Source: Candidatus Helarchaeota ASGARD archaeon Hel_GB_B (GTDB lineage: Archaea; Asgardarchaeota; Lokiarchaeia; Helarchaeales; HEL-GB-B). From it: a DNA stretch of 35,822 nucleotides. Below the pieces are notes generated by a model. The model was not told where the DNA came from, made no database searches, and saw only the letters and a list, made by a program, of their open reading frames with translations. Location: assembly GCA_005191425.1 (NCBI GenBank), contig SUPR01000031.1:1-35822 (forward strand), in the 5' to 3' direction. How positions within the stretch are numbered: position 1 is the first letter of the stretch; each line of letters begins with the position of its first letter. A program made the translations under genes and the position numbers. Shown here piece by piece: positions 4,184-26,459 of this stretch.

Positions 4184-5680
4184 AAATCATATTTATTACC
4201 TGAATTCAAAATTATTCGGGATGATGACCGATGTATTCGATGCCAAGTTTGTGTTAGGCAATGTGGATTTGGTGTTCATACCTATGACGAAGAAAATGAT
4301 ATAATTATTTCTGATGAATCAAAATGCGTGGGATGTCAACGTTGTGCAGTTTTCTGTCCTACTAATGCTTTAACAATAATGACTAATCCATATGAATATC
4401 GTCCAAATGCAAATTGGAGAAAGGAATTTATTAATGATGTAAAAAAGCAAGCTGAAGGTGGAGGAGTAATACTTACTGGATGTGGAAACGATAAACCATA
4501 TAAAATTTATTGGGATCATATTGTTCTTAATGCATCACAAGTTACTAACCCGTCCATTGACCCATTAAGAGAACCTATGGAGCTAAGGACTTATTTAGGT
4601 AGTAAAACAAACCAATTAGAAATGGTAGATGGAGAGTTAAAGACGGTCTTAACGTCTCAAGTTATGATTGAAACACCAATAATATTTTCGGCACTATCAT
4701 ATGGTGCAATTAGCTTTAATGCACAAACGTCCTTGGCAAGAGCAGCAAGTGAATTTGGAACTTTATTTAATAGTGGAGAAGGTGGATTGCCGAAAGAATT
4801 AAGAAAATATGGAAAAAACGCAATAGTACAATGTGCATCAGGTAGGTTTGGAGTTGATCCAGAATATTTAAACAGTTCAGCAGTTGTAGAAATTAAAATT
4901 GGTCAAGGTGCAAAACCCGGGATTGGAGGACATTTACCAGGTGAAAAAGTTTCAATTCCAGTTTCCAGAACTCGGATGATCCCAGAAGGTACAGATGCAT
5001 TATCTCCAGCGCCACAGCATGATATTTATTCAATAGAAGATCTTTCTACCTTAATCTATGCGTTAAAGGAAACTACAAATTATGAAAAACCTATCTCTGT
5101 AAAAATTGCAGCAGTGCATAATTCTGCGGCAATAGCAAGTGGTATGGTACGAGCTGGTGCAGATATTATTGCTCTTGATGGAATTCGAGGTGGTACAGGA
5201 GCTGCTCCAAAAATAATTCGAGATAATGTAGGTATCCCGATTGAATTGGCATTAGCTGCTGTCGATGAACGGTTGAGAAAAGAGAGAATTAGAAATAAAT
5301 GTTCAATTATTGTTGCAGGTGGGTTTAGGAATGCAGGTGATATTATTAAAGCAATAGCATTAGGTGCAGATGCAGTTTATATAGCGACTGCTGCTTTAGT
5401 AGCAATGGGATGCACTTTGTGTCAAAAATGTTATACCGGAATTTGTAATTGGGGTATTTGTACAACAGATCCTTGGCTTTCAAAACGTATTAATCCAGAT
5501 ATTGCGACTAAAAGACTCACAAATCTGCTCAGAGGCTGGAGTCTTGAAATTAAAGAGATGCTTGGTGGAATGGGTATAAATGCTATAGAATCACTTAGAG
5601 GTAATAGACACCACTTAAGAGGTGTAGGATTAAATAAATGGGAGCTTGATGTTTTAGGAATTAAAGGGGCTGGTGAATAA
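4181..5680 (+). CDS. Glutamate synthase FMN domain with N-terminal 2[4Fe-4S] ferredoxin (archaeal GltB2)
   Basis: The catalytic subunit forms glutamate from 2-oxoglutarate and ammonia on a flavin-containing TIM barrel. An N-terminal bacterial-type ferredoxin holds C18/21/24/28 and C49/52/55/59. The barrel follows (about residues 80-490), with FMN/substrate segments such as NSGEGGLPKEL, KIGQGAKPGIGGHLPG and GIRGGTGAAPK. A cysteine cluster at C411-C427 (GCTLCQKC...) matches the iron-sulfur site of the synthase domain. The GTG start is supported by AAGGAGG ten bases upstream. The gene follows the glutaminase gene after 5 bases and overlaps the GXGXG gene by 8. The N-terminal ferredoxin fused to this domain is the archaeal arrangement, distinct from the long bacterial GltB. 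Confidence 0.92.
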   Translation: MKSYLLPEFKIIRDDDRCIRCQVCVRQCGFGVHTYDEENDIIISDESKCVGCQRCAVFCPTNALTIMTNPYEYRPNANWRKEFINDVKKQAEGGGVILTGCGNDKPYKIYWDHIVLNASQVTNPSIDPLREPMELRTYLGSKTNQLEMVDGELKTVLTSQVMIETPIIFSALSYGAISFNAQTSLARAASEFGTLFNSGEGGLPKELRKYGKNAIVQCASGRFGVDPEYLNSSAVVEIKIGQGAKPGIGGHLPGEKVSIPVSRTRMIPEGTDALSPAPQHDIYSIEDLSTLIYALKETTNYEKPISVKIAAVHNSAAIASGMVRAGADIIALDGIRGGTGAAPKIIRDNVGIPIELALAAVDERLRKERIRNKCSIIVAGGFRNAGDIIKAIALGADAVYIATAALVAMGCTLCQKCYTGICNWGICTTDPWLSKRINPDIATKRLTNLLRGWSLEIKEMLGGMGINAIESLRGNRHHLRGVGLNKWELDVLGIKGAGE

Positions 5681-6440
5681 TTTGCAAAATGGAACTTCTA
5701 TAAAAATTGATGCAAAAGAAATTTTCTATAAGGATTTGAATAATTTTATTTTAGATTCTGCCTTAAAAGGAATTAAAAAAATTATTTTAAACAATGTTTT
5801 TGGACAACGGTATATCGCAAGTCGGCTTTATAATATCCCAAAAATCGAAATTGAAGTATTCGGAACTCCAGGCAATGATTTAGGCGCATTTAATGATGGA
5901 CACCAAATAACAGTTTATGGAAATGCTCAAGATGGAGTTGGTAATACAATGAATGAAGGAGAAATAATAATTCATGGACATGCAGGAGACATTCTGGGTA
6001 TGTCTGCTAGAGGTGGCAAAATTTTCGTCAGAGATTATGTGGGATATAGAGCAGCTCTCCATATGAAACATTACAAAGATAAAAAACCAATTATAGTAAT
6101 TGGGGGAACTGCACAAGATTTTATTGGCGAATATATGGCTGGTGGAATAGTAATTTTACTAGGACTTGGACTTAAAAAAGGAGAAAGTCATAAACCAAAT
6201 TTCGTTGGGACAGGAATGCATGGGGGGACTATTTATATAAGAGGTGTCGTCAACTCATTTCAATTAGGTAAAGAAGTTGGAATTGTTGAACTAACCGAAG
6301 AGGACCATAAAATTATTGAGGAAAATGTTAAAAAATACGCCAATTATTTTAATAAAGATGTAGATGAAATTTTAAACAATGATTTTATCAAATTGATTCC
6401 GATTTCTAAGAGACCTTATGGAAAACTTTATGTGTATTAG
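5673..6440 (+). CDS. Glutamate synthase GXGXG domain (archaeal GltB3)
   Basis: This 255-residue protein is the structural beta-helix domain that ends the large subunit of bacterial glutamate synthase (COG0070). Repeated glycine motifs are plain: GTPGNDLGAF, YGNAQDGVGNTMNEG, HGHAGDILGMSARGG and GGTAQDFIGEYMAGG. In the assembled enzyme it supports the channel that passes ammonia from the glutaminase to the FMN site. It is the last gene of the operon. The start is GTG 5673, overlapping the previous stop. A TTG at 5682 is the alternative, and would sit at a better distance from the AAAGGGG at 5663-5669. The choice changes only three residues. No catalytic residues are expected in this domain. Confidence 0.9.
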   Translation: MNNLQNGTSIKIDAKEIFYKDLNNFILDSALKGIKKIILNNVFGQRYIASRLYNIPKIEIEVFGTPGNDLGAFNDGHQITVYGNAQDGVGNTMNEGEIIIHGHAGDILGMSARGGKIFVRDYVGYRAALHMKHYKDKKPIIVIGGTAQDFIGEYMAGGIVILLGLGLKKGESHKPNFVGTGMHGGTIYIRGVVNSFQLGKEVGIVELTEEDHKIIEENVKKYANYFNKDVDEILNNDFIKLIPISKRPYGKLYVY

Positions 6441-6470
6441 ATAGTGATTTTAATACTCAAATTTCTACAT

Positions 6471-6499
6471 AATTTTTTAAAATTAAAATAAAAAAAATT
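6471..6499. terminator. Bidirectional T-rich terminator between convergent genes
   Basis: A six-T run on the + strand (6473-6478) and an eight-T run on the - strand (complement of 6490-6497) lie in the 65-bp gap between the glutamate synthase operon and the convergent flavoprotein gene. Archaeal transcription commonly ends at such T-tracts. No strong hairpin is needed or seen. Confidence 0.45.
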
Positions 6500-6505
6500 A
6501 ATGAT

Positions 6506-8503
6506 TTAAACTCTTAACCCTGCCTTATAACCATCGTTAATTGCATCTAATGCTTTTCTAGGTTTTTTAGCATCACCAATTATACGAATTTGAAAACCAC
6601 TTTCTTTTAGTTTATCTGCAAATTCGCGATCTTTTTTAACACCTGTAGCAATTATAACATTATCGGCTTTGATTTCTTGTATTTTATCACCTGTTTTTAC
6701 GATTACATTGTCAACGGTAATTTCTAATACTTCTGAACTTGTTAATTGTCTGATCTCTTTATACCGTAAATCTTTCATCATGGTCCATCTTGTAGACCTA
6801 CCAATATTACCACCTAATTTTGGTAATATGTCTATAATAGTCACATTCTTTAGTCCTTTACGATAATAGTGTAATGCTTCGTCAATTGATAGAACTTTAT
6901 GCTGAATCATAAACATTGCAATTTCTGATGAAATAGAACCCATTTCCGAAACATAAAGAGCAGTTTCAACGCCCGTTGCTCCCCCGCCAATAATTACAAT
7001 ATCATCTTTTAGGAGAACATTTCCAAGCAAAACATCCTTAGCTTTCACAACATGAGGGAGGTCAATTCCTTTTATGGGGGGTATTATATCTTTACCTCCA
7101 GCAGCATAAACTATTTCATCTGGGTTTATTTTCTTAACAATATCTAGAGTACATTCTGTATTTAATATTACATTAACCCTTAGTTTGTCTAATTGGTTTT
7201 TTAACCAATCAATAGCCCTCATAAATTCTTGTCGACCTGGAGGAATTGCAGCTAAATAAAATGCACCACCCAAATAACTATCTTTTTCGTATAATATAAC
7301 ATCATGGCCTCGCATTTTTGCGACCATGGCGGCTTCCATGCCACCAACACCACCACCAATGACTAAAATTTTCTTTTTCTCTTTTGCAGGAGTAATTGCA
7401 TATTGATCTTCTCGGCCTGCAGCAGGGTTTTGAAGACATGTAATTGGTTGCGCTTCAAAAACCATATCAAAACAGCCTTGTGCACAACCTATACACCACC
7501 TAATATCATCATACCTACATTCTTTAACTTTTTGAACAATATATGGATCACAAATAAGTGGTCGGCCCCAACCAATTAAGTCGCAATAGTTATTTTTAAG
7601 TAATTTTTCTGCTGTTTGTAAATCATGAATTCTATGGCATTCTACTACTGGTATATTTACTGTTTTTCTAATTTCATAAGTCATAAATGAAAATGCACCA
7701 TGTGGAACATTAGAAGTAAGTTGAGGAGTTTTTGAGGTATGCCAAGCACCAGCAATGTCTAAAACATCAACACCAGCTTTTTCTAATAATGGAGCAACTT
7801 TTTTCCAATCTTTAAAAGATAAACTTCCCGGGACAAGGTCATCATGGGGCATACGCCAAATTAATGGGAAATCACCTACATGATCTCTAATACTTTTTAT
7901 AACTTCATATAAAAATGTCATTCTTTCTTCGAGTGTTTCTCCACCATATCGATCCTTCCTTTTATTTATTAAGGGCGATAAAAATTGGCAAGGTAAATAC
8001 CCAGTATTTCCGCAAACTTGAACCGCATCAAATCCAGCTTCTTTTAACCTAGCCGAAGCAAGGCCATAGTCTTCAACTATTTGTTCGATCTCTTTTATTG
8101 TTAATTCACGTGCAACTTTTCTAGCAAACGGGGCATCACATTCTGAAGGAGCTACTAACTCCCCAATTACGCCAAAACGCCCAGCATGATATAATTGCGC
8201 TGCACATTTAGTCCCATATTGATGAATTGTATCAGCAAACTCTCTCAAACCTGGAATAAATTCATCAGAGCCTAAGTTTGGCATTGTAGGTGCTCCCCCT
8301 GAAAATTCCGAGAAGTTGCACCCACCTATTACAATCATTCCAACTCCACCTTTTGCTCTTTCTTCGTAAAATCTTATAAATTTCTTCGTTATCGCTCCTT
8401 TTGAATCTGCATAAGATAAATGCATTGATGGCATGTAAATTCTGTTTGAAAGAATAAGATTATCTTTAATTTTTAATGGTTCCAATAACATCAATTTTAT
8501 CAT
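6506..8503 (-). CDS. NADH:flavin oxidoreductase, 2,4-dienoyl-CoA reductase / BaiH-like (FMN, 4Fe-4S, FAD)
   Basis: The 665-residue protein has the three-part build of bacterial FadH/BaiH enoate reductases. An old-yellow-enzyme TIM barrel spans about 5-330 (QLYHAGRFG, GYLPCQFLSPLINKRKDRYG). A [4Fe-4S] site is formed by C337, C340, C344 and C356 (WCIGCAQGC). An FAD/NAD(P) part has Rossmann motifs VIGGGVGGMEAA near 381 and IIGGGATGVETALY near 515. It would reduce an activated C=C bond using NAD(P)H through FAD, the cluster and FMN. The substrate cannot be read from sequence; dienoyl-CoA, other enoates or a steroid-like compound are all possible. In the barrel the position often occupied by His before the GYL motif is Cys (VCGNTGYL), so substrate chemistry may differ. 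It stands alone, convergent with the glutamate synthase operon. The start is ATG 8503, with ATG 8491 an alternative. Confidence 0.9.
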   Translation of the reverse strand: MIKLMLLEPLKIKDNLILSNRIYMPSMHLSYADSKGAITKKFIRFYEERAKGGVGMIVIGGCNFSEFSGGAPTMPNLGSDEFIPGLREFADTIHQYGTKCAAQLYHAGRFGVIGELVAPSECDAPFARKVARELTIKEIEQIVEDYGLASARLKEAGFDAVQVCGNTGYLPCQFLSPLINKRKDRYGGETLEERMTFLYEVIKSIRDHVGDFPLIWRMPHDDLVPGSLSFKDWKKVAPLLEKAGVDVLDIAGAWHTSKTPQLTSNVPHGAFSFMTYEIRKTVNIPVVECHRIHDLQTAEKLLKNNYCDLIGWGRPLICDPYIVQKVKECRYDDIRWCIGCAQGCFDMVFEAQPITCLQNPAAGREDQYAITPAKEKKKILVIGGGVGGMEAAMVAKMRGHDVILYEKDSYLGGAFYLAAIPPGRQEFMRAIDWLKNQLDKLRVNVILNTECTLDIVKKINPDEIVYAAGGKDIIPPIKGIDLPHVVKAKDVLLGNVLLKDDIVIIGGGATGVETALYVSEMGSISSEIAMFMIQHKVLSIDEALHYYRKGLKNVTIIDILPKLGGNIGRSTRWTMMKDLRYKEIRQLTSSEVLEITVDNVIVKTGDKIQEIKADNVIIATGVKKDREFADKLKESGFQIRIIGDAKKPRKALDAINDGYKAGLRV

Positions 8504-9019
8504 CTTTTAATTTAAATTCTAGAAAATAATAATTGAAAGTATATTGAATAACCTAAAAATTTTTTCATTAATATATTAACTTGAATTTTGAATTTCCGTA
8601 ATAATTTTTCTTAATGATAACCGAATTACGACTTTTAAATGCTACTGATAATTATACTTACCACTTCTAACCTCTATTTAAGAAGCAAATTCGATATCTA
8701 TTATAATTAATTAAATTACAAATATCTTAGTAATAAGGACGATAAGAATTCTATTATTACATTCATTTACGTATTACTCGATTTTGATATAATGGTGATC
8801 AATACCGCAGAAGAAAGTCGGTTCCGAGGAGAGTTTAGTCGTGAAGAGAGATTTCTAGGTAAAATAGAGGTAATATAGAGTAATATCAATAATATTTAAA
8901 GGTGAGAATCCATAATTATAATCGTGAACTCACAGTTTTTAGCCATTAAATGGTGATACAAACACGACAGGGTGTCTATTGAGTGCACACCAATTCATTT
9001 GGTACCAATAGAATTGTAA
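8504..9019. other. Gene-free region with a less AT-rich core (about 8790-9000)
   Basis: No long frame is open on either strand. The stretch 8790-9000 is noticeably richer in G and C than the surrounding spacers. It shows short pairing segments, for example GTGAG/CTCAC around 8902-8935, and TGGTG/CACCA around 8952-8990. A 28-codon ORF starts at ATG 8792 but has no recognisable product. The region may hold a structured RNA or a further degraded part of the glycosidase relic that follows. I could not match it to RNase P, SRP, tRNA or a known riboswitch. Confidence 0.35.
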
Positions 9020-9492
9020 TTATTTGACAGGTTATTCATTTTTAACTATATTTTATTAAAAATTATAGATGATGTTTATAATAAGACGGGAACTTTTTGG
9101 GAGTTTTATAATTCTGGAGCAGGTTAAGTTAATGATGTATATGGGAAAAGTTGGTGGACACCAGCATCAGATTGTATAGGTTGGGATGGCTTAAGTTCCA
9201 ATTTAATAATTGAAAAATTGATTGGTATTGCTTATAACAATTCAGGAATTTTATTTAACCCATTAATCCCTGCAGAATGGAATTCATTGAAGATTGTTTT
9301 ATCTTTAAATCTAATTGATTTAAATTTAACTCTTAAAAATAACCGAATTAAAGGAGACCTTTTTTTAAAAATCAATATTTCAACAATTTAACAATTGTAG
9401 ATTTAGCTCATTTAAACCAGGACACATATTCAATAAGATCAATTCAGTTTAATTTTACGAATTTTGGACATTACTTGTTCTTAATAAAATAA
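9020..9492 (+). pseudogene. Decayed C-terminal fragment of a trehalase/GH63-like glycoside hydrolase
   Basis: Conceptual translation in the frame of base 9068 gives a protein-like sequence with a TAA at 9125-9127. Before the stop it reads NKTGTFWEFYNSGAG. After it come SDCIGWDGLSSNLIIEKLIG and FNPLIPAEWNSLKIVLSL. The run TGTxWExY, then GWxGL, then IIExxIGI and PLIPxEW is typical of the C-terminal end of (alpha/alpha)6-barrel glycosidases of the trehalase/GH63-like group. That frame ends at TAA 9389. The protein-like reading continues in the next frame (NLTIVDLAHLNQDTYSIRS) to TAA 9490, implying a frameshift near 9385. The gene is truncated at its 5' side, with no start codon or catalytic half. 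It is therefore a relic. The exact family needs a profile search. Confidence 0.7.
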
Positions 9493-9521
9493 AAAAAAGT
9501 AAAATATAGATTATAAAAAAA

Positions 9522-10403
9522 TTAACATATAGTACATTTTTTAAAGTACATAATATACTTGTTTGTACCTAGAATAGCAACAGTAGGGTCAGCAACAATA
9601 CCTGTAAAACCCGAAATTAGATTTTGAGCTATGAAAGTTAGTCCGCTGCTGTTATATTCTGCAACTGATATATTTTTACCATTATGAAGATAAGTATAAT
9701 ATTTCCCGCTAATAACAACAGTAGATGCAAGCCACCCTTGTGAAAATGAGAAGGAAGTATCTTCTGTAAAATTACCCGTTGCAGAATTACTTGTTGCTTT
9801 AATTAATTGGTTCCCAGTATTTACAAAAAGCACCCATCCACCTGTTGAGTTTTGAAATAAATCTGGATCAGTAATCCTATCTTTAGTGAATATAACGGCT
9901 TCTTCATTAAAATTAATACCATTATCAGATACGGCTGTAACAATTTTATGATTAATTCCGGATGGATTGAGATTACCTAAATATGTTAAACGTATTTTAC
10001 TACCATCTACAATAGGTGCTGGATCAACCGGCATTGGACTATTTGTCCCGTTAATTGAAACGGCATATATACTATAAGTTGACCCATTATTATGACTTAT
10101 AGCTACTTTTAATGAGCCACAGATCCCATCTACAAAATATACATAAATACTTCCATTAAAATAAACAGCTCCCGGCACAGAAGCATGATTAAAAAGAAGT
10201 GTATAATTTACAGTCCAATTTATTCCATCAGTAGAAGTTGCACAGTAAATCTGGTGATAATATGGGCCTCCTTCTGGCATTTTAGTGTTCTTTTGCAGAT
10301 TAAAAATAACTATAGGAATAATTATTGCACCAACAATGATTATAACCAATAGAAGGGAAAATAGTACTATATTCTTTTTTGAAACCAATTTTATCATTCT
10401 CAT
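9522..10403 (-). CDS. Membrane-anchored extracellular beta-propeller protein (glycosidase-like fold)
   Basis: The 293-residue protein begins with basic residues, then one long hydrophobic segment (about 11-35) that would act as a signal anchor. The rest is polar and beta-rich. It has repeated segments of the type ATSTDGINW, AISHNNGSTYS, AVSDNGINFNEE and DPDLFQNSTGGW, typical of five-bladed propellers related to GH43/GH32 and Asp-box proteins. Several Asn-X-Ser/Thr sequons (NWT, NYT, NGS, NGT, NST) suit a surface location. Catalytic acids cannot be assigned with confidence, so binding rather than hydrolysis is equally possible. It lies next to the glycoside hydrolase relic at 9020-9492, suggesting a former carbohydrate locus. 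Start is ATG 10403, with ATG 10397 an alternative. Confidence 0.65.
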   Translation of the reverse strand: MRMIKLVSKKNIVLFSLLLVIIIVGAIIIPIVIFNLQKNTKMPEGGPYYHQIYCATSTDGINWTVNYTLLFNHASVPGAVYFNGSIYVYFVDGICGSLKVAISHNNGSTYSIYAVSINGTNSPMPVDPAPIVDGSKIRLTYLGNLNPSGINHKIVTAVSDNGINFNEEAVIFTKDRITDPDLFQNSTGGWVLFVNTGNQLIKATSNSATGNFTEDTSFSFSQGWLASTVVISGKYYTYLHNGKNISVAEYNSSGLTFIAQNLISGFTGIVADPTVAILGTNKYIMYFKKCTIC

Positions 10404-10667
10404 TTATTTGAATTTTAATAATTTTTTAATTTGACAAATTAATTAAAATTATTATTTAAATAATTTTTAATGCTAAATAATAATTTATAAATAATTTTTA
10501 AATTTTGATGAAAAATTATTATTATTTATGTCTTAAACCCGACTGTATTCATATTTGATTATAATATTTGATTTTAAAATATGTATTTTTTATCTACGTC
10601 ATTTATTAAATTTCTTGATGTTTTTAAAATAATTCAAGCGTATTTTAAATTTAATAATGAATAAATA

Positions 10668-10970
10668 TCAGAGATATTCCTTTAACTTTTCAATTGTATT
10701 TTTCCCATAATCTGTAATTTCATAATAAACATATCTATTTATTTTTTCTTTTTTTATTAAGTTTAATTTGACCAGTTCATTTAGGTATAACCTAATACCA
10801 GAGGATGTCCTTTTTACTTTTCGAGCAATCTGAGCTTGGTAGAGTGGAGCATCATTATCAAGCAGTATCTTGATTATTTTGAATTTTATTTTGTTTGCCT
10901 TTAATTTGAACATATTTATGAATTCTTCTTCGCTAAATTTTTTCCAGATAGTTTCTTTTTGTTTAGACAT
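10668..10970 (-). CDS. Winged-helix DNA-binding protein (ArsR-like)
   Basis: The 100-residue protein fits a single winged helix-turn-helix. A helix (NKIKFKIIKILLDN) is followed by the HTH APLYQAQIARKVKRTSSGIRLYLNELVKLNLI, with a beta wing VYYEITDYGKNTIEKL. No metal-binding cysteines or ligand domain are seen, so it is not a typical metal-sensing ArsR. It stands alone, with over 150 bp of spacer on each side, so its target is unknown; autoregulation or control of a neighbour is possible. The fold is well supported and the target is not. Confidence 0.75.
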   Translation of the reverse strand: MSKQKETIWKKFSEEEFINMFKLKANKIKFKIIKILLDNDAPLYQAQIARKVKRTSSGIRLYLNELVKLNLIKKEKINRYVYYEITDYGKNTIEKLKEYL

Positions 10971-11139: not shown

Positions 11140-11652
11140 TCATATTTTATTTTTTTCTAATAAAGAGAATGCGAGATTAACTGCGTCTATACCATTTTTT
11201 GCAGAAAATACTCGGTAATTTTTATTATTTACATATTTATTGTAGAATTCTTCAGACACACCACCAGATTTGGGTATTGTTATCAATGTTTTATTTAGTT
11301 TCAAGGAATAATTTGCCTCTATTCTGGTACCTAAAACTCCAGCAATACAAATCAAAATATCAGATGATTGGACTACCAGAAAATTTCTATTTTCGCCCAT
11401 ATTAGTAGGGATCTTAATTGTGACATATTGATTAGCTTCATCTGGGCTTATTGATGGTAAAATACCAACGCTTATACCATTAAAGTCATGACAACCTTTA
11501 CATGCTGATTCCATTACTCCGCCTTTACCCCCACAAATTAAAATACCCTTCTTTCTTGCTATTTCCGCTCCTACATCATAGGCTATCTTTTTAATATCAT
11601 TAGATATACCAATGCCACTCCCGATCACACCAATTTGGAACATTTTAAACAC
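11140..11652 (-). CDS. TIGR00725 / LOG-like Rossmann-fold nucleotide-binding protein
   Basis: The 170-residue protein opens with a Rossmann-type strand and glycine loop (IGVIGSGIGIS). It contains GGKGGVMESACKG and MGENRNFLVVQSSD, the hallmarks of the TIGR00725 branch of the LOG/SLOG superfamily. The segment CIAGVLGTRIEANYSL takes the place of the PGGxGTxxE motif of cytokinin-riboside phosphoribohydrolases, so that activity should not be assumed. Members bind nucleotides or nucleotide-derived ligands. Its start lies one base after the stop of the metallo-beta-lactamase-fold gene, so the two are co-transcribed. ATG 11652 gives MFKMFQIGVIG; an internal ATG nine bases later is the alternative. 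Confidence 0.8.
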   Translation of the reverse strand: MFKMFQIGVIGSGIGISNDIKKIAYDVGAEIARKKGILICGGKGGVMESACKGCHDFNGISVGILPSISPDEANQYVTIKIPTNMGENRNFLVVQSSDILICIAGVLGTRIEANYSLKLNKTLITIPKSGGVSEEFYNKYVNNKNYRVFSAKNGIDAVNLAFSLLEKNKI

Positions 11653-11653
11653 A

Positions 11654-12454
11654 TTATAAAGTGATTTCCATTTCTTTATTTAATTCTAGTACTTGTAATT
11701 TAGTGTCAGGATGTTTTTCTTTTAATATTTTTTCAATTTTATCGATTTGATACATGTAATAATCGCTTAAAGGGGGAAACGAATCATCAAAATGTGTGGG
11801 AATAACCAATTTAGGACTGAAAATTTCAATATATTTTATGGCATTTTTCCATGCATCTCTCCTTCCAGCAACAGGAATAATTAAGACATCCGTTGAATAA
11901 TCTTCTTCTTTAAATAAATCTTTACTAAATCCTAATGACCCAAAAATAGTGACTTTTTTATTATCTTCTTTAAGTAAATTGAAAATCCACCCTAAAACTT
12001 CACCCTTTTTCCAGCTTATCAAATCTTTACCTGAAACTAAAAGCTTGTAAGTACTCCATCTAAATATTTTTCGTATAATGGTCCCAAAATCAAAAGTAAT
12101 ATGTTTACCTTTAATAGCTTTTACTGTAAAATCGTCCATCTCAAATGAATCGCCACTATTAACTTTGACCACTAAATTTTCGTCTAATCCTTTATTTTCA
12201 ATTGCAACTTCTGCTGCAGGTGTAGAAACGTAAACCTTTATTCCCAGTTTTTTTACAAGATAAGGTGTATCTGCAAAATGATCAAAATGACCATGAGTAA
12301 TAAAAATATAATCTGCTTTTTGGATCATATCTTTATTTATCTCAGGTTTAATAGGATATGCATTTTTAAACCTAGAAAGCCATGGATCCATTAAAATAAT
12401 ACTTGACCCGGTCTTAATTTCTAAAGCAGCGGTCCCAAGCCATCTTATTTTCAT
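11654..12454 (-). CDS. UlaG-like metallo-beta-lactamase-fold hydrolase
   Basis: The 266-residue cytoplasmic protein has the metal motif H54-G-H56-F-D58-H59 in FITHGHFDHF. It also has the N-terminal signature IRWLGTAALEIKTG...LMDPWLSR and a late IPTHFDDSF segment. That is the build of the COG2220/UlaG group, two-metal hydrolases that act on phosphodiester or lactone substrates. The substrate is not evident. It is the first gene of a two-gene unit with the TIGR00725 protein, separated by one base. The gene is complete for the family and its residues look intact. The promoter would lie in the 288-bp divergent spacer shared with the KaiC-like gene. Confidence 0.85.
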   Translation of the reverse strand: MKIRWLGTAALEIKTGSSIILMDPWLSRFKNAYPIKPEINKDMIQKADYIFITHGHFDHFADTPYLVKKLGIKVYVSTPAAEVAIENKGLDENLVVKVNSGDSFEMDDFTVKAIKGKHITFDFGTIIRKIFRWSTYKLLVSGKDLISWKKGEVLGWIFNLLKEDNKKVTIFGSLGFSKDLFKEEDYSTDVLIIPVAGRRDAWKNAIKYIEIFSPKLVIPTHFDDSFPPLSDYYMYQIDKIEKILKEKHPDTKLQVLELNKEMEITL

Positions 12455-12742: not shown

Positions 12743-13522
12743 ATGGAAACGACAACAATATCAAATAAGGATTCTGAAGTGGAAAAAAGAGTTCCAACTC
12801 TAATTAATGGTTTTGATAAATTAATTGAAGGAGGATTTGTAAAAAATAGTTTAAATTTGATTAGTGGGCCAGCAGGATCTGGGAAAACAATTTTTTGCTT
12901 GCAATACGTATATAATGGGGTAAAATATCTAAAAGAGCCCGGCGTTTTTATTACATTAGAAGAAAGCGTCGAAAGTATAAGAAGTTCAATGAAGAGATTT
13001 GGAATTGATTTAAGAAAATACGAGCGTCCTGACAAGTTTAGTCTTGCAGATTTGGGTGCAATAAGAAAAGAACTGTCAATTGAAGAAGAAGTTCAATCAG
13101 GTGGACTTTTAGATTTGGACTCGTTAATTGAATATATAAAAGGGGTAATAAGTCTGACAGATGCAAAAAGGCTTGTATTGGATTCATTGACGGCTATTGG
13201 AATTAAATACCATGAAACAAGTACAATTCGACAGGCTTTATTTAGGTTGGGCAGATTTTTAAGAGATTTGGGAAGTACTGTTCTAGTGACGACAGAGTCG
13301 ATCCCATACCAAAATAAATACACCAGATTTGGTATTGAACAATTTATTGCAGACTCTTTTATTCTTTTAAATTTAACAGAAATAAATGGAATATTAAAAA
13401 GAACAATATTAGTAAGAAAAATGAGGCATACTAATCATGATTTGCACGTTCACCCCTACAAAATAACTTCAAATGGAATAGAAATATTAAAAGGAAGAGA
13501 TTTTTACAATATTAAATTTTAA
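12743..13522 (+). CDS. Single-domain KaiC-like RecA-superfamily ATPase
   Basis: The 259-residue protein is one KaiC/RadA-type ATPase domain (COG0467). It shows Walker A GPAGSGKT at 42-49, a catalytic Glu pair in TLEES (73-74) and Walker B LVLDS at 144-148. The opening RVPTLINGFDKLIEGGF is the classic KaiC entry motif. Clock KaiC has two such domains and phosphorylation sites; this has one, as in the many archaeal homologues tied to signalling, motility or unknown roles. The stop is 12 bases before a longin/Arf-like GTPase gene, so the two are probably co-transcribed and may work together. No strong Shine-Dalgarno precedes ATG 12743. The fold is certain; the function is unknown. Confidence 0.85.
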   Translation: METTTISNKDSEVEKRVPTLINGFDKLIEGGFVKNSLNLISGPAGSGKTIFCLQYVYNGVKYLKEPGVFITLEESVESIRSSMKRFGIDLRKYERPDKFSLADLGAIRKELSIEEEVQSGGLLDLDSLIEYIKGVISLTDAKRLVLDSLTAIGIKYHETSTIRQALFRLGRFLRDLGSTVLVTTESIPYQNKYTRFGIEQFIADSFILLNLTEINGILKRTILVRKMRHTNHDLHVHPYKITSNGIEILKGRDFYNIKF

Positions 13523-13534
13523 AAAGGTGTTAAA

Positions 13535-14407
13535 ATGTTTAAAGGGCTGTTTATAATTGAAAATGATAATATTATATATAGTTTAGCTTTACAACAAAAC
13601 ATTTTTAATGTTGGTTATGATTATTACTATGATTTTTTAAAGACTTCAGCAGATTGGGAAGAAAGACATGATTCAGAGATGATTTTTGATGTAATAGCTG
13701 GAAATGTCTGTTTATATTACAAATATATCCAAAATTATAATTTAATTTTAGTAATAATTGTGGATTTATATAATAAAGGAGAGCAGATTAAGGAGATTTT
13801 TCGGGAGGTCAGTTCAATTTTAGAAGATAAATCTTTAGACCTTTTAAAGGATGACGCCCGTTTTAAGACATTTACGCAACTATTTTTAACATTTCAAGAA
13901 CATATTCCAATTAAAATTTCACTTGTCGGGTTTGGAGGGGTCGGAAAAACGACTATATTGAAATTACTAAAAGAACAAGAACTCCCTACTACCCATAATC
14001 CAACGATATTAGCCGATATTACGCAATATAATTTAAATGGTATTCATTTCAATTTTTGGGATTTTGCAGGACAAGTTGCTTATAAAAATGTCTGGCCGAA
14101 ACTAATTAATAAATCAGATTTGGTCATTGTAGTTACTGATTCTTCGCAGAAAAATGTATCTTTATCAAAATTTTTTCTTGATTTAATTTTAAACATTGTA
14201 CCTTATTCTAAAAAAATTATCATCGCAAATAAACAAGACACGCCAAATGCTATAGATGTACCACGTATTAATCAAATTTTAGGAGAAAATACTATTCCAT
14301 TTGTTGCTATTGACCCAAATTATAGATCAATTCTCTTAGAAAATATTTTTAATGCTTTAAACTTAATAACAGAGGGAGAACAAATTGTGATTCAATCAAA
14401 TTATTAA
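13535..14407 (+). CDS. Arf-like small GTPase with N-terminal longin-like domain
   Basis: The 290-residue protein has two parts. Residues 1-120 start MFKGLFIIENDNIIYSLALQ and include a strand LILVIIVDLY and a long helix, a pattern like longin or related adaptor folds. Residues 127-280 are a small GTPase with G1 GFGGVGKT (132-139), a likely G2 Thr157, G3 WDFAGQ (175-180) and G4 NKQD (232-235). The stretch ANKQDTPNA is close to the Arf signature. There is no C-terminal prenylation motif and no N-terminal Gly for myristoylation. AAGGTG ends five bases before the ATG. The gene follows the KaiC-like ATPase after 12 bases. The GTPase call is firm. The longin call comes from pattern only and needs structure prediction. 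Confidence 0.85.
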   Translation: MFKGLFIIENDNIIYSLALQQNIFNVGYDYYYDFLKTSADWEERHDSEMIFDVIAGNVCLYYKYIQNYNLILVIIVDLYNKGEQIKEIFREVSSILEDKSLDLLKDDARFKTFTQLFLTFQEHIPIKISLVGFGGVGKTTILKLLKEQELPTTHNPTILADITQYNLNGIHFNFWDFAGQVAYKNVWPKLINKSDLVIVVTDSSQKNVSLSKFFLDLILNIVPYSKKIIIANKQDTPNAIDVPRINQILGENTIPFVAIDPNYRSILLENIFNALNLITEGEQIVIQSNY

Positions 14408-14474: not shown

Positions 14475-15530
14475 ATGGAATTTTGGAAAAAATTTTTTAT
14501 ATTTGTTGGAATTCCATTCTTGATTTTTTATATTTTTATGATCATAATATATTTTGCGTTTCTTAGCAGTATTTGGTTAGTCGCGTTAATTGTGGGCGTA
14601 TTTTGTCTCCGTAAAAACAGAATATGGTGAAGGCTTAGTAAATTATCAATAGCAATGTTCATTTGTGTTTTTATTTTAATTTCAAATCCGATTTACTGGC
14701 CTTCACAAATTTATAGACACTTAGATACTTCTACAATTATTACTCCTAACGCCCCGGCAGTTCAACATCTTAATGATACATCACAATTTTGGGCATACAT
14801 AAATTCCACTTATGGAATAAATGGACCATGTTACAAATCCTTAACTGATTATCAAAAAGTCCATTTGGTGGAACATTTTATCTTAGACAAAATTCAATAT
14901 TTAAATATCCAATATATTTGGTTTGTAATTGACTATGTTGCAACTCCTACAGAAGTTTTAGAACGAGGAGTAGGCGATTGTCAGCATCGGACAGTTGTAA
15001 TGGTCTCATTTCTTATTTACTTAGGATTTGATGCGTATTGTGCGGAGTGCCCATTGCATTGGTATCCAGTTGTATTTTTAAAAAATGGTTCTATTACTTA
15101 TTTATATCATGTAAATTGGACGCAACCTGAAATCTTGATTAATGACCATAACAAAATTTTTTTAATGGATTTACCAACGAGACTTTATGACGCTCTAACC
15201 CATTTTTCACTCAATGAACCGTTAAATGCTCTATTAAACACGCCGTTTTTCTGGATTATATTGATCCCTCTTTCTTTTGGTATGTCCGGATCTTTAGTAT
15301 TAATTATAAAAACATCAGGAAACCCATCAAAAAAGAAAAACTTATACAATATTTTATTTGGTGGAATATCACTAATAATTGGTTTATTATTTACTACGAT
15401 TTTAGGTAATATCTACATTCCAATAAGTTTAACTATAATACTTATTACAATAATTATAACAGTCCAATTAATTAGCCATAATTTTTTTCTATTTAGAAAA
15501 TTAAGCAGAAACAATAAGAATGTAAGTTAA
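14475..15530 (+). pseudogene. Membrane transglutaminase-like protein, first tandem copy, interrupted by in-frame TGA
   Basis: Reading from ATG 14475 gives MEFWKKFFIFVGIPFLIFYI, closely matching the start of the next gene. Codon 52 (14628-14630) is TGA where the paralogue has Arg51 (RIW-stop-RLSK against KFWRRTTK). The frame is then intact to 15530. It carries the transglutaminase-like core GVGDCQHRTVV, LIYLGFDAYC, LHWYPVVFL and YLYHVN, plus two or three C-terminal membrane helices. One base change (CGA or AGA to TGA) explains the stop. An internal ATG at 14655 could yield a 291-residue protein lacking the first membrane segment, but it has no clear ribosome-binding site. The copy is a fresh pseudogene, a read-through gene, or a shortened product; a sequencing error is also possible. 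Confidence 0.75.
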
Positions 15531-25517: not shown

Positions 25518-26459
25518 TTAGTCTATGGTGGAGTTATTATTGCCCTTTTTAGAAATTATAGATTCTAATTTTGGATATAATTCTCTTAAAAAATTACTCC
25601 AAATATCCTGTAAATTGATAAACATTTCTCCAATCAATACAAAAAAGAATATATTTTCATCAATAACTAAATTTTTTAGCAGAAATTGGAACTGTTTATT
25701 AATAACTAAATAGATTTCATTAACTCTTTTCATTTCCTTTATATTTTCAATAGTTGTCAACATGTCCATAATAATTGTTAAAAAAAATGGTTTGTTTTCA
25801 TCAGATTTATAAACTTCAGAGAGGATTAATGAATTTTTCTCGAAAAAGATAACTCCTTCCAATTTTTTATCATCTAAAAAATTTAATAAAAGTAAATCAA
25901 TTTTATTTAGGTCCGAGATTAATTTTGAAATGCCATAAGAAAATGATTCGACTAACGATTTTCTATCATAAATAGATGTTTTAAAAACTTTTACTTTACC
26001 AATGGAATTTTCTAAAAATAATTTTTTTAACTTTTCAAATTTTTCCATGAAATCCTTATTGTCTAAGATTTCAGGGTCAAATTTATGAATACAAATGATT
26101 ATTTCAGGGGTTTCATTATATTCTTTTAAAATATTTAATATTTCTTTGTAGTATTTTAATGATACATCATAAAGAGATTCATCTTTAATATCAACTATAT
26201 AAAATAATAAGTCAGTATCGAGAAAACTTCGTTCATCTCTAATATATTTTTCTCTAAATTTTTCTTGTCCTCCTAAATCCCACAATATTGTTTCTGTACC
26301 CATTAAATCAATCGAACTTCGTTCTATCCCTAATGTTGGACTAATTTTACTTAATTTTGAATATTCTTGCTCTAAAGATAATATAATAGAAGTCTTACCA
26401 GCATTTCCTAATCCAGCGTATAGAATTTTACAATATTTCTGCTCCATGGAAATCATCAA
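25518..26459 (-). CDS. Rag/Gtr1-type small GTPase with C-terminal roadblock-like domain
   Basis: The 313-residue protein matches eukaryotic RagA/Gtr1 along its whole length. G1 is GLGNAGKT (16-23), a probable G2 Thr is T42, G3 is LWDLGGQEKF (DLGGQ at 61-65), and G4 is HKFD (125-128), the HKxD form typical of Rag proteins. The segment FKTSIYDRKSL matches the Rag switch-distal motif. The C-terminal part (about 186-305), with GVIFFEKNSLILSE, fits the roadblock/longin-type dimerisation domain. In eukaryotes Rag heterodimers signal amino-acid status to TORC1 at the lysosome; no such target is known here. The P-loop Lys and Thr are intact. It is a lone gene with a 318-bp spacer towards the helicase. 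The start could be any of three nearby ATGs (26459, 26456, 26447). Confidence 0.9.
   Translation of the reverse strand: MMISMEQKYCKILYAGLGNAGKTSIILSLEQEYSKLSKISPTLGIERSSIDLMGTETILWDLGGQEKFREKYIRDERSFLDTDLLFYIVDIKDESLYDVSLKYYKEILNILKEYNETPEIIICIHKFDPEILDNKDFMEKFEKLKKLFLENSIGKVKVFKTSIYDRKSLVESFSYGISKLISDLNKIDLLLLNFLDDKKLEGVIFFEKNSLILSEVYKSDENKPFFLTIIMDMLTTIENIKEMKRVNEIYLVINKQFQFLLKNLVIDENIFFFVLIGEMFINLQDIWSNFLRELYPKLESIISKKGNNNSTID

Follow-up and report, generated by a model that had tools for sequence, protein, structure and literature searches.

Why should a gene for a KaiC-like ATPase be followed, only 12 nt further on, by one for a small GTPase that seems to carry a longin domain at its N-terminus? 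The two genes lie in Hel_GB_B, a member of the order Helarchaeales that forms its own family within the genome set, on a stretch of 35,822 nucleotides (contig C109, hereafter the window) of a fragmented 3.54 Mb MAG in 182 contigs. Three other genomes of the same order were available for comparison (Hel_GB_A, Meg19_1012_Bin_504 and LW55_61, G001 to G003; names inferred). An earlier note on this DNA had seen in the pair what would be a novel signalling module, made of a KaiC partner and a GTPase with an intramolecular regulator.

The two genes and their products

The first gene (P0002; positions 12743 to 13522, plus strand) encodes a single-domain KaiC-like ATPase of 259 residues, which matches the KaiC family PF06745 over residues 17-250 with 219 bits (cut-off 26.6). 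Alignment places the Walker A motif GPAGSGKT at residues 42-49, the catalytic glutamate pair at E73-E74, the Walker B aspartate at D147 and the arginine-finger-type motif KMRxTxH at residues 226-232. All four KaiC motifs are intact, and presumably have the roles assigned to them in KaiC proteins generally. A circadian clock KaiC was considered and rejected: the protein has one domain, not two in tandem, and scores 144.7 against a cut-off of 546 for TIGR02655 and 189 against 408 for NF006799.

The second gene (P0001; positions 13535 to 14407, plus strand) encodes a longin–Arf-like GTPase of 290 residues. Its G domain (residues 123-290, positions 13901 to 14407) matches the Arf family PF00025 over residues 123-254 with 75.6 bits (cut-off 22.3) and holds the G1 motif GFGGVGKT, the switch threonine T157, WDFAGQ with Q180, W187 seven residues beyond this glutamine, and NKQD. 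The motifs of the nucleotide-binding site are thus intact, the Arf-type Q180 included. The aspartate of WDxxGQ stands 19 residues beyond the switch-I threonine, an Arf-type spacing and the same as in Arf1. A eukaryotic-type Arf N-terminus, i.e., an amphipathic, myristoylated helix, was rejected for this protein, which starts MFKGLF without the MG and has a globular domain of about 120 residues in that place. No prenylation-type cysteine is present at the C-terminus, and with both of these features missing, the protein is not expected to attach to membranes as Arf proteins do.

What, then, is the N-terminal domain (residues 1-120, positions 13535 to 13894)? No Pfam family matches it above the curated cut-off. 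The AlphaFold2 model of P0001, built from an alignment of 26 homologues (mean pLDDT 81.5), contains strands at residues 2-9, 12-18, 49-53, 58-65 and 70-77 and helices at 21-37, 83-98 and 107-121. Residues 1-121 therefore follow the longin order ββ-α-βββ-αα at moderate confidence (block pLDDT 62-85), the first helix and the loops being only moderately confident (blocks 62-74). A roadblock/LC7 domain, which needs α-ββ-α-βββ-α, was rejected since the model begins with two strands and finishes with two helices. Sub-threshold matches to the longin clan were obtained for a minority of the P0001 family members (Clat_adaptor_s 0.0083, Longin 0.036, Fuz_longin_1 0.04), and the weak matches of the family profile to PDB sequences include AP-2 sigma (E 0.15). 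A Foldseek search with the whole model was dominated in its top 50 by G-domain matches. The predicted order of elements and the sub-threshold family matches support a longin-like domain.

The spacer between the genes (positions 13523 to 13534, 12 nt, plus strand) contains the Shine-Dalgarno-like sequence AAGGTG at 13524-13529, which leaves 5 nt to the ATG of P0001, and both genes are in the same frame; on this spacing and ribosome-binding sequence, co-translation is plausible. Upstream, on the opposite strand, the pair is adjoined by a gene for a metallo-beta-lactamase-fold protein; about 250 nt downstream lies one for a protein that matches no Pfam family and probably begins with a transmembrane segment. 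With these neighbours, the pair looks like a self-contained two-gene unit. Promoter and terminator scans gave no more matches than expected from shuffled sequence. On the two genes the earlier note was right: their coordinates and spacing agree with it, as do the single-domain KaiC ATPase, the Arf-type G domain with its ANKQDTPNA segment and, at the moderate confidence of the model, a longin-like N-terminus.

Other features of the window may be recorded here. The metallo-beta-lactamase-fold gene and one for a SLOG cluster4 protein lie side by side (together 11140 to 12454, minus strand), divergent from the KaiC pair, and the Pfam-less membrane-type protein downstream (14655 to 15530, plus strand) has a GVGDCQHR segment that resembles a transglutaminase-like active site. 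Further along, positions 25518 to 26459 (minus strand) encode a Rag-like GTPase (PF04670, 95.6 bits), whose C-terminal part, of about 120 residues, looks roadblock-like.

Conservation of the pair and a second pair in the same genome

A search of other genomes, the three of the same order among them, did not find the exact P0002–P0001 pair again. Homologues of P0001 occur in 60 of the 60 relatives searched, many of them full-length at about 350 residues, with a C-terminal extension of about 65 residues that P0001 lacks. P0002-like KaiC proteins (E<=1e-10) occur in 10 of the same 60, the best outside match having 39% identity, and by these counts the GTPase family can do without KaiC. The flanks of P0001 homologues sampled across the class contain no KaiC gene. 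Longin–Arf units of the P0005 type form the N-terminus of proteins of about 830 to 1140 residues in other Lokiarchaeia (L271, L272, L273, L275 and L276).

The host genome itself contains a second pair. On contig C150 a KaiC gene is followed after 11 nt by a gene for a longin–Arf protein of 324 residues, in the same order and with the same architecture as in the window. The N-terminal domain of this GTPase is modelled in the longin order at higher confidence than that of P0001 (block pLDDT mostly >83). The two pairs differ in both members: the C150 KaiC is not sister to P0002 (AU p 0.017, to be read with caution in view of long branches), and the G domains belong to different subfamilies with 23% identity over 186 residues. 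The C150 KaiC has neither the catalytic glutamate pair nor the KMR arginine in the alignment, from which ATP hydrolysis would not be essential to every version of the arrangement. Of the strong single-domain KaiC genes in this genome, four in number, two thus have a GTPase gene next downstream, for which the chance probability is about 0.001-0.003, or 0.01-0.03 when counted over all 11 KaiC-family genes; these figures take 49 small GTPases (the PF00025 matches, at least that number) in an estimated 3000-3500 genes.

The C150 pair is part of a larger cluster (L358, positions 7529 to 10916), which also encodes a Ras-like GTPase and a zinc protein in which an MPIG-type N-terminus is combined with a TackOD1 domain (PF18551, 122.7 bits, cut-off 32). 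TackOD1 is an archaeal signal-transduction output domain (PMC5847659). Relatives of all four components are found together, although rearranged, in a cluster on contig C50 of Hel_GB_A (L124), with identities of 40% for KaiC, 39% for the longin–Arf protein and 36% for the Ras-like GTPase; the longin-type/TackOD1 protein is split there into two pieces.

Could the longin domain instead serve mainly to pair with other longin proteins, in heterodimers of the Rag or TRAPP kind, with KaiC an occasional extra? Genes for stand-alone MPKG..W proteins of 129 and 126 residues directly flank P0001 homologues in the Helarchaea G003 and G001 (L360, positions 4730 to 5119, minus strand; L362, 7691 to 8071, plus strand), and these are possibly separate longin-type partners. 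The MPIG-type N-terminus fused to TackOD1 at the C150 locus points the same way. Against this, the stand-alone proteins match no Pfam family, longin included, so that their fold is putative, and no MPKG-type gene flanks the window pair. We therefore regard pairing among longin proteins as a quite improbable account of the locus.

KaiC–GTPase linkage across Asgard archaea

Is the linkage of KaiC to small GTPases confined to Helarchaeales? The neighbourhoods of about 100 KaiC genes, picked by KaiC similarity alone, were read. Beside the main and commonest conserved Asgard KaiC lineage no GTPase gene was found; its neighbourhood is conserved and GTPase-free, which rules out a general KaiC–GTPase synteny. 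As a background, GTPases make up 9 of 290 genes lying four to six positions from a KaiC gene (about 3%).

Linkage recurs in other lineages. Among the families of the genome set, f18 probably stands for Hermodarchaea, f20 for Jordarchaea together with part of f19 (one f20 genome being labelled Freyarchaeota), f26 for Borrarchaeum and f28 for Thorarchaeota. In the hermodarchaeal genus g38, all four genomes sampled (L264, L280, L283 and L284) have three genes in succession, for a KaiC, a Ras-like GTPase and a double KaiC of GvpD-like type, and a sister genus keeps both KaiC genes without the GTPase. Borrarchaeum has KaiC genes with a GTPase gene on one side, either before or after. There is also a fusion protein of about 385 residues, in which a degenerate KaiC domain is joined to a small GTPase domain. 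It is full-length in 7 of 228 genomes, all of f19 or f20 (L293, positions 5719 to 6882; L294, 1408 to 2580; L289, 3747 to 4886; L292, 512 to 1651; L194; L197; and also L343), and the three fusion proteins tested match both KaiC and GTPase Pfam models above cut-off. In all six neighbourhoods read, the gene just before that of the fusion encodes an intact KaiC, at a distance of 8-14 nt in four and 114-144 nt in two. On a KaiC tree of 42 rows GTPase linkage needs five changes, each forced by starred branches, and on a quick tree of 102 rows it needs six, three of them forced; gains and losses are not separable on either, and the KaiC tree has long branches. The conservation test proposed in the earlier note thus has a divided outcome, the exact pair being found in a single one of the genomes searched while linkage of KaiC to GTPases of other subfamilies, together with a gene fusion, exceeds the background of about 3%.

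Might these genes simply be neighbours, by chance or for transcriptional reasons, without functional coupling? With its 49 or more small GTPase genes the genome offers many opportunities for this, and both the restriction of the exact pair to one of the genomes searched and the GTPase-free setting of the main KaiC lineage would be in keeping with it. It is less easily reconciled with a second, independent pair in the same genome and order at near-identical spacing (11 vs 12 nt), or with the Hel_GB_A cluster, the hermodarchaeal operons and the Jordarchaea-family fusions when set against 9 in 290, and we consider it unlikely. Because of the second independent pair, the conserved C150/C50 cluster, the recurrent KaiC–GTPase operons and the fusion, gene order and sequence support the idea that KaiC and small GTPases are functionally coupled, which fits the view of KaiC as a hub.

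A proposed KaiC hub with small GTPase switches

How might such a coupling work? In the reading we prefer, the probability of which we put midway between doubt and acceptance, the window pair is a two-gene signalling unit of the KaiC-hub type with the longin–Arf protein as its switch. KaiC, a predicted ATP-hydrolysing RecA-fold oligomer, would be an ATP-dependent hub, and the co-transcribed GTPase would act as its GTP/GDP switch, the nucleotide state of KaiC being coupled to the GTPase cycle. The longin domain in cis may provide the G domain with a platform for dimerisation and regulation, and would be the likeliest docking face for KaiC. The fusion suggests how contact could be made elsewhere, with a degenerate KaiC subunit tethering the GTPase to a KaiC ring. 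In this proposal we infer the physical contact of the two proteins, the direction of control, the oligomeric state and the signal that is sensed.

The direction could be the reverse, with the GTP-bound longin–Arf protein gating KaiC ring assembly or output and KaiC as its effector. Eukaryotic Arf proteins act upstream of effectors. The evidence of linkage is the same for either direction, and the fusion sets the GTPase on a degenerate KaiC that could co-assemble with an active one. The sequences give no evidence of direction, however, and KaiC is usually taken as the archaeal hub (PMC5847659), although a hub may sit on either side; control by the GTPase from upstream accordingly seems to us rather improbable.

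Beyond the window, and more tentatively, since we judge it somewhat short of an even chance, the KaiC-hub reading may extend to an undescribed class of Asgard signalling systems, in which small GTPases of a eukaryote-like kind (longin fusions of Arf-like type, Ras-like proteins and others) are coupled to KaiC assemblies, having been recruited several times independently and once by fusion. If this is true, an archaeal KaiC hub was joined to the GTPase switches later used by eukaryotes for membrane traffic. Little is known of what regulates the dozens of small GTPases encoded by Asgard genomes, or of the signals that reach them, and a recurrent link to KaiC would give some of them a concrete regulator or effector. 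The window pair, the C150 locus and the fusion of the Jordarchaea families all offer small, apparently soluble proteins, which are open to direct expression and assay.

How does this compare with known systems? The union of a longin domain with an Arf-type G domain, which the earlier note had implied to be new, is not: one paper mentions five longin–Arf fusions in Lokiarchaeum (PMC4917890), and another describes fusions of longin or roadblock domains with Rag- or Arf-like GTPases in MK-D1 (PMC10933270). With these reports and homologues in every one of the 60 relatives, the fusion is ordinary for these archaea. The longin/roadblock GTPases of Lokiarchaeia likewise carry a longin domain on an Arf- or Rag-like G domain and have undergone large lineage-specific expansions; in the accessible text of the same two papers no KaiC partner is described for them, whereas a KaiC gene adjoins that of P0001. 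A literature search for KaiC with small GTPases in archaea found none, which is no proof of absence, and as far as this search shows the new part is the link between the two. Of the module claimed at the outset the KaiC partnership is retained, in modified form only. The Asgard ArfR GTPase GerdArfR1 (PDB 8oum/8oun) also has an Arf-type G domain, and 8oum ranks high in a fold search with P0001, as one of the best matches, but it was solved as a single-domain Arf, whereas P0001 has a longin-like domain before its G domain.

Bacterial MglA-MglB and the actinobacterial conservon (Cvn) operons encode a small GTPase together with a regulator of the roadblock/longin superfamily. In P0001 the regulator-type domain is instead in cis, and the co-encoded protein is a KaiC ATPase. 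Archaeal KaiC-like ATPases were reportedly proposed as signal-transduction hubs by Makarova et al. in 2017 (mBio). The loci described here resemble those proposed hubs in two respects, namely single-domain KaiC proteins with intact motifs beside putative output components, and fusions of inactivated KaiC copies with signalling domains; in the Asgard loci, the component linked to KaiC is a small GTPase, drawn from three different subfamilies.
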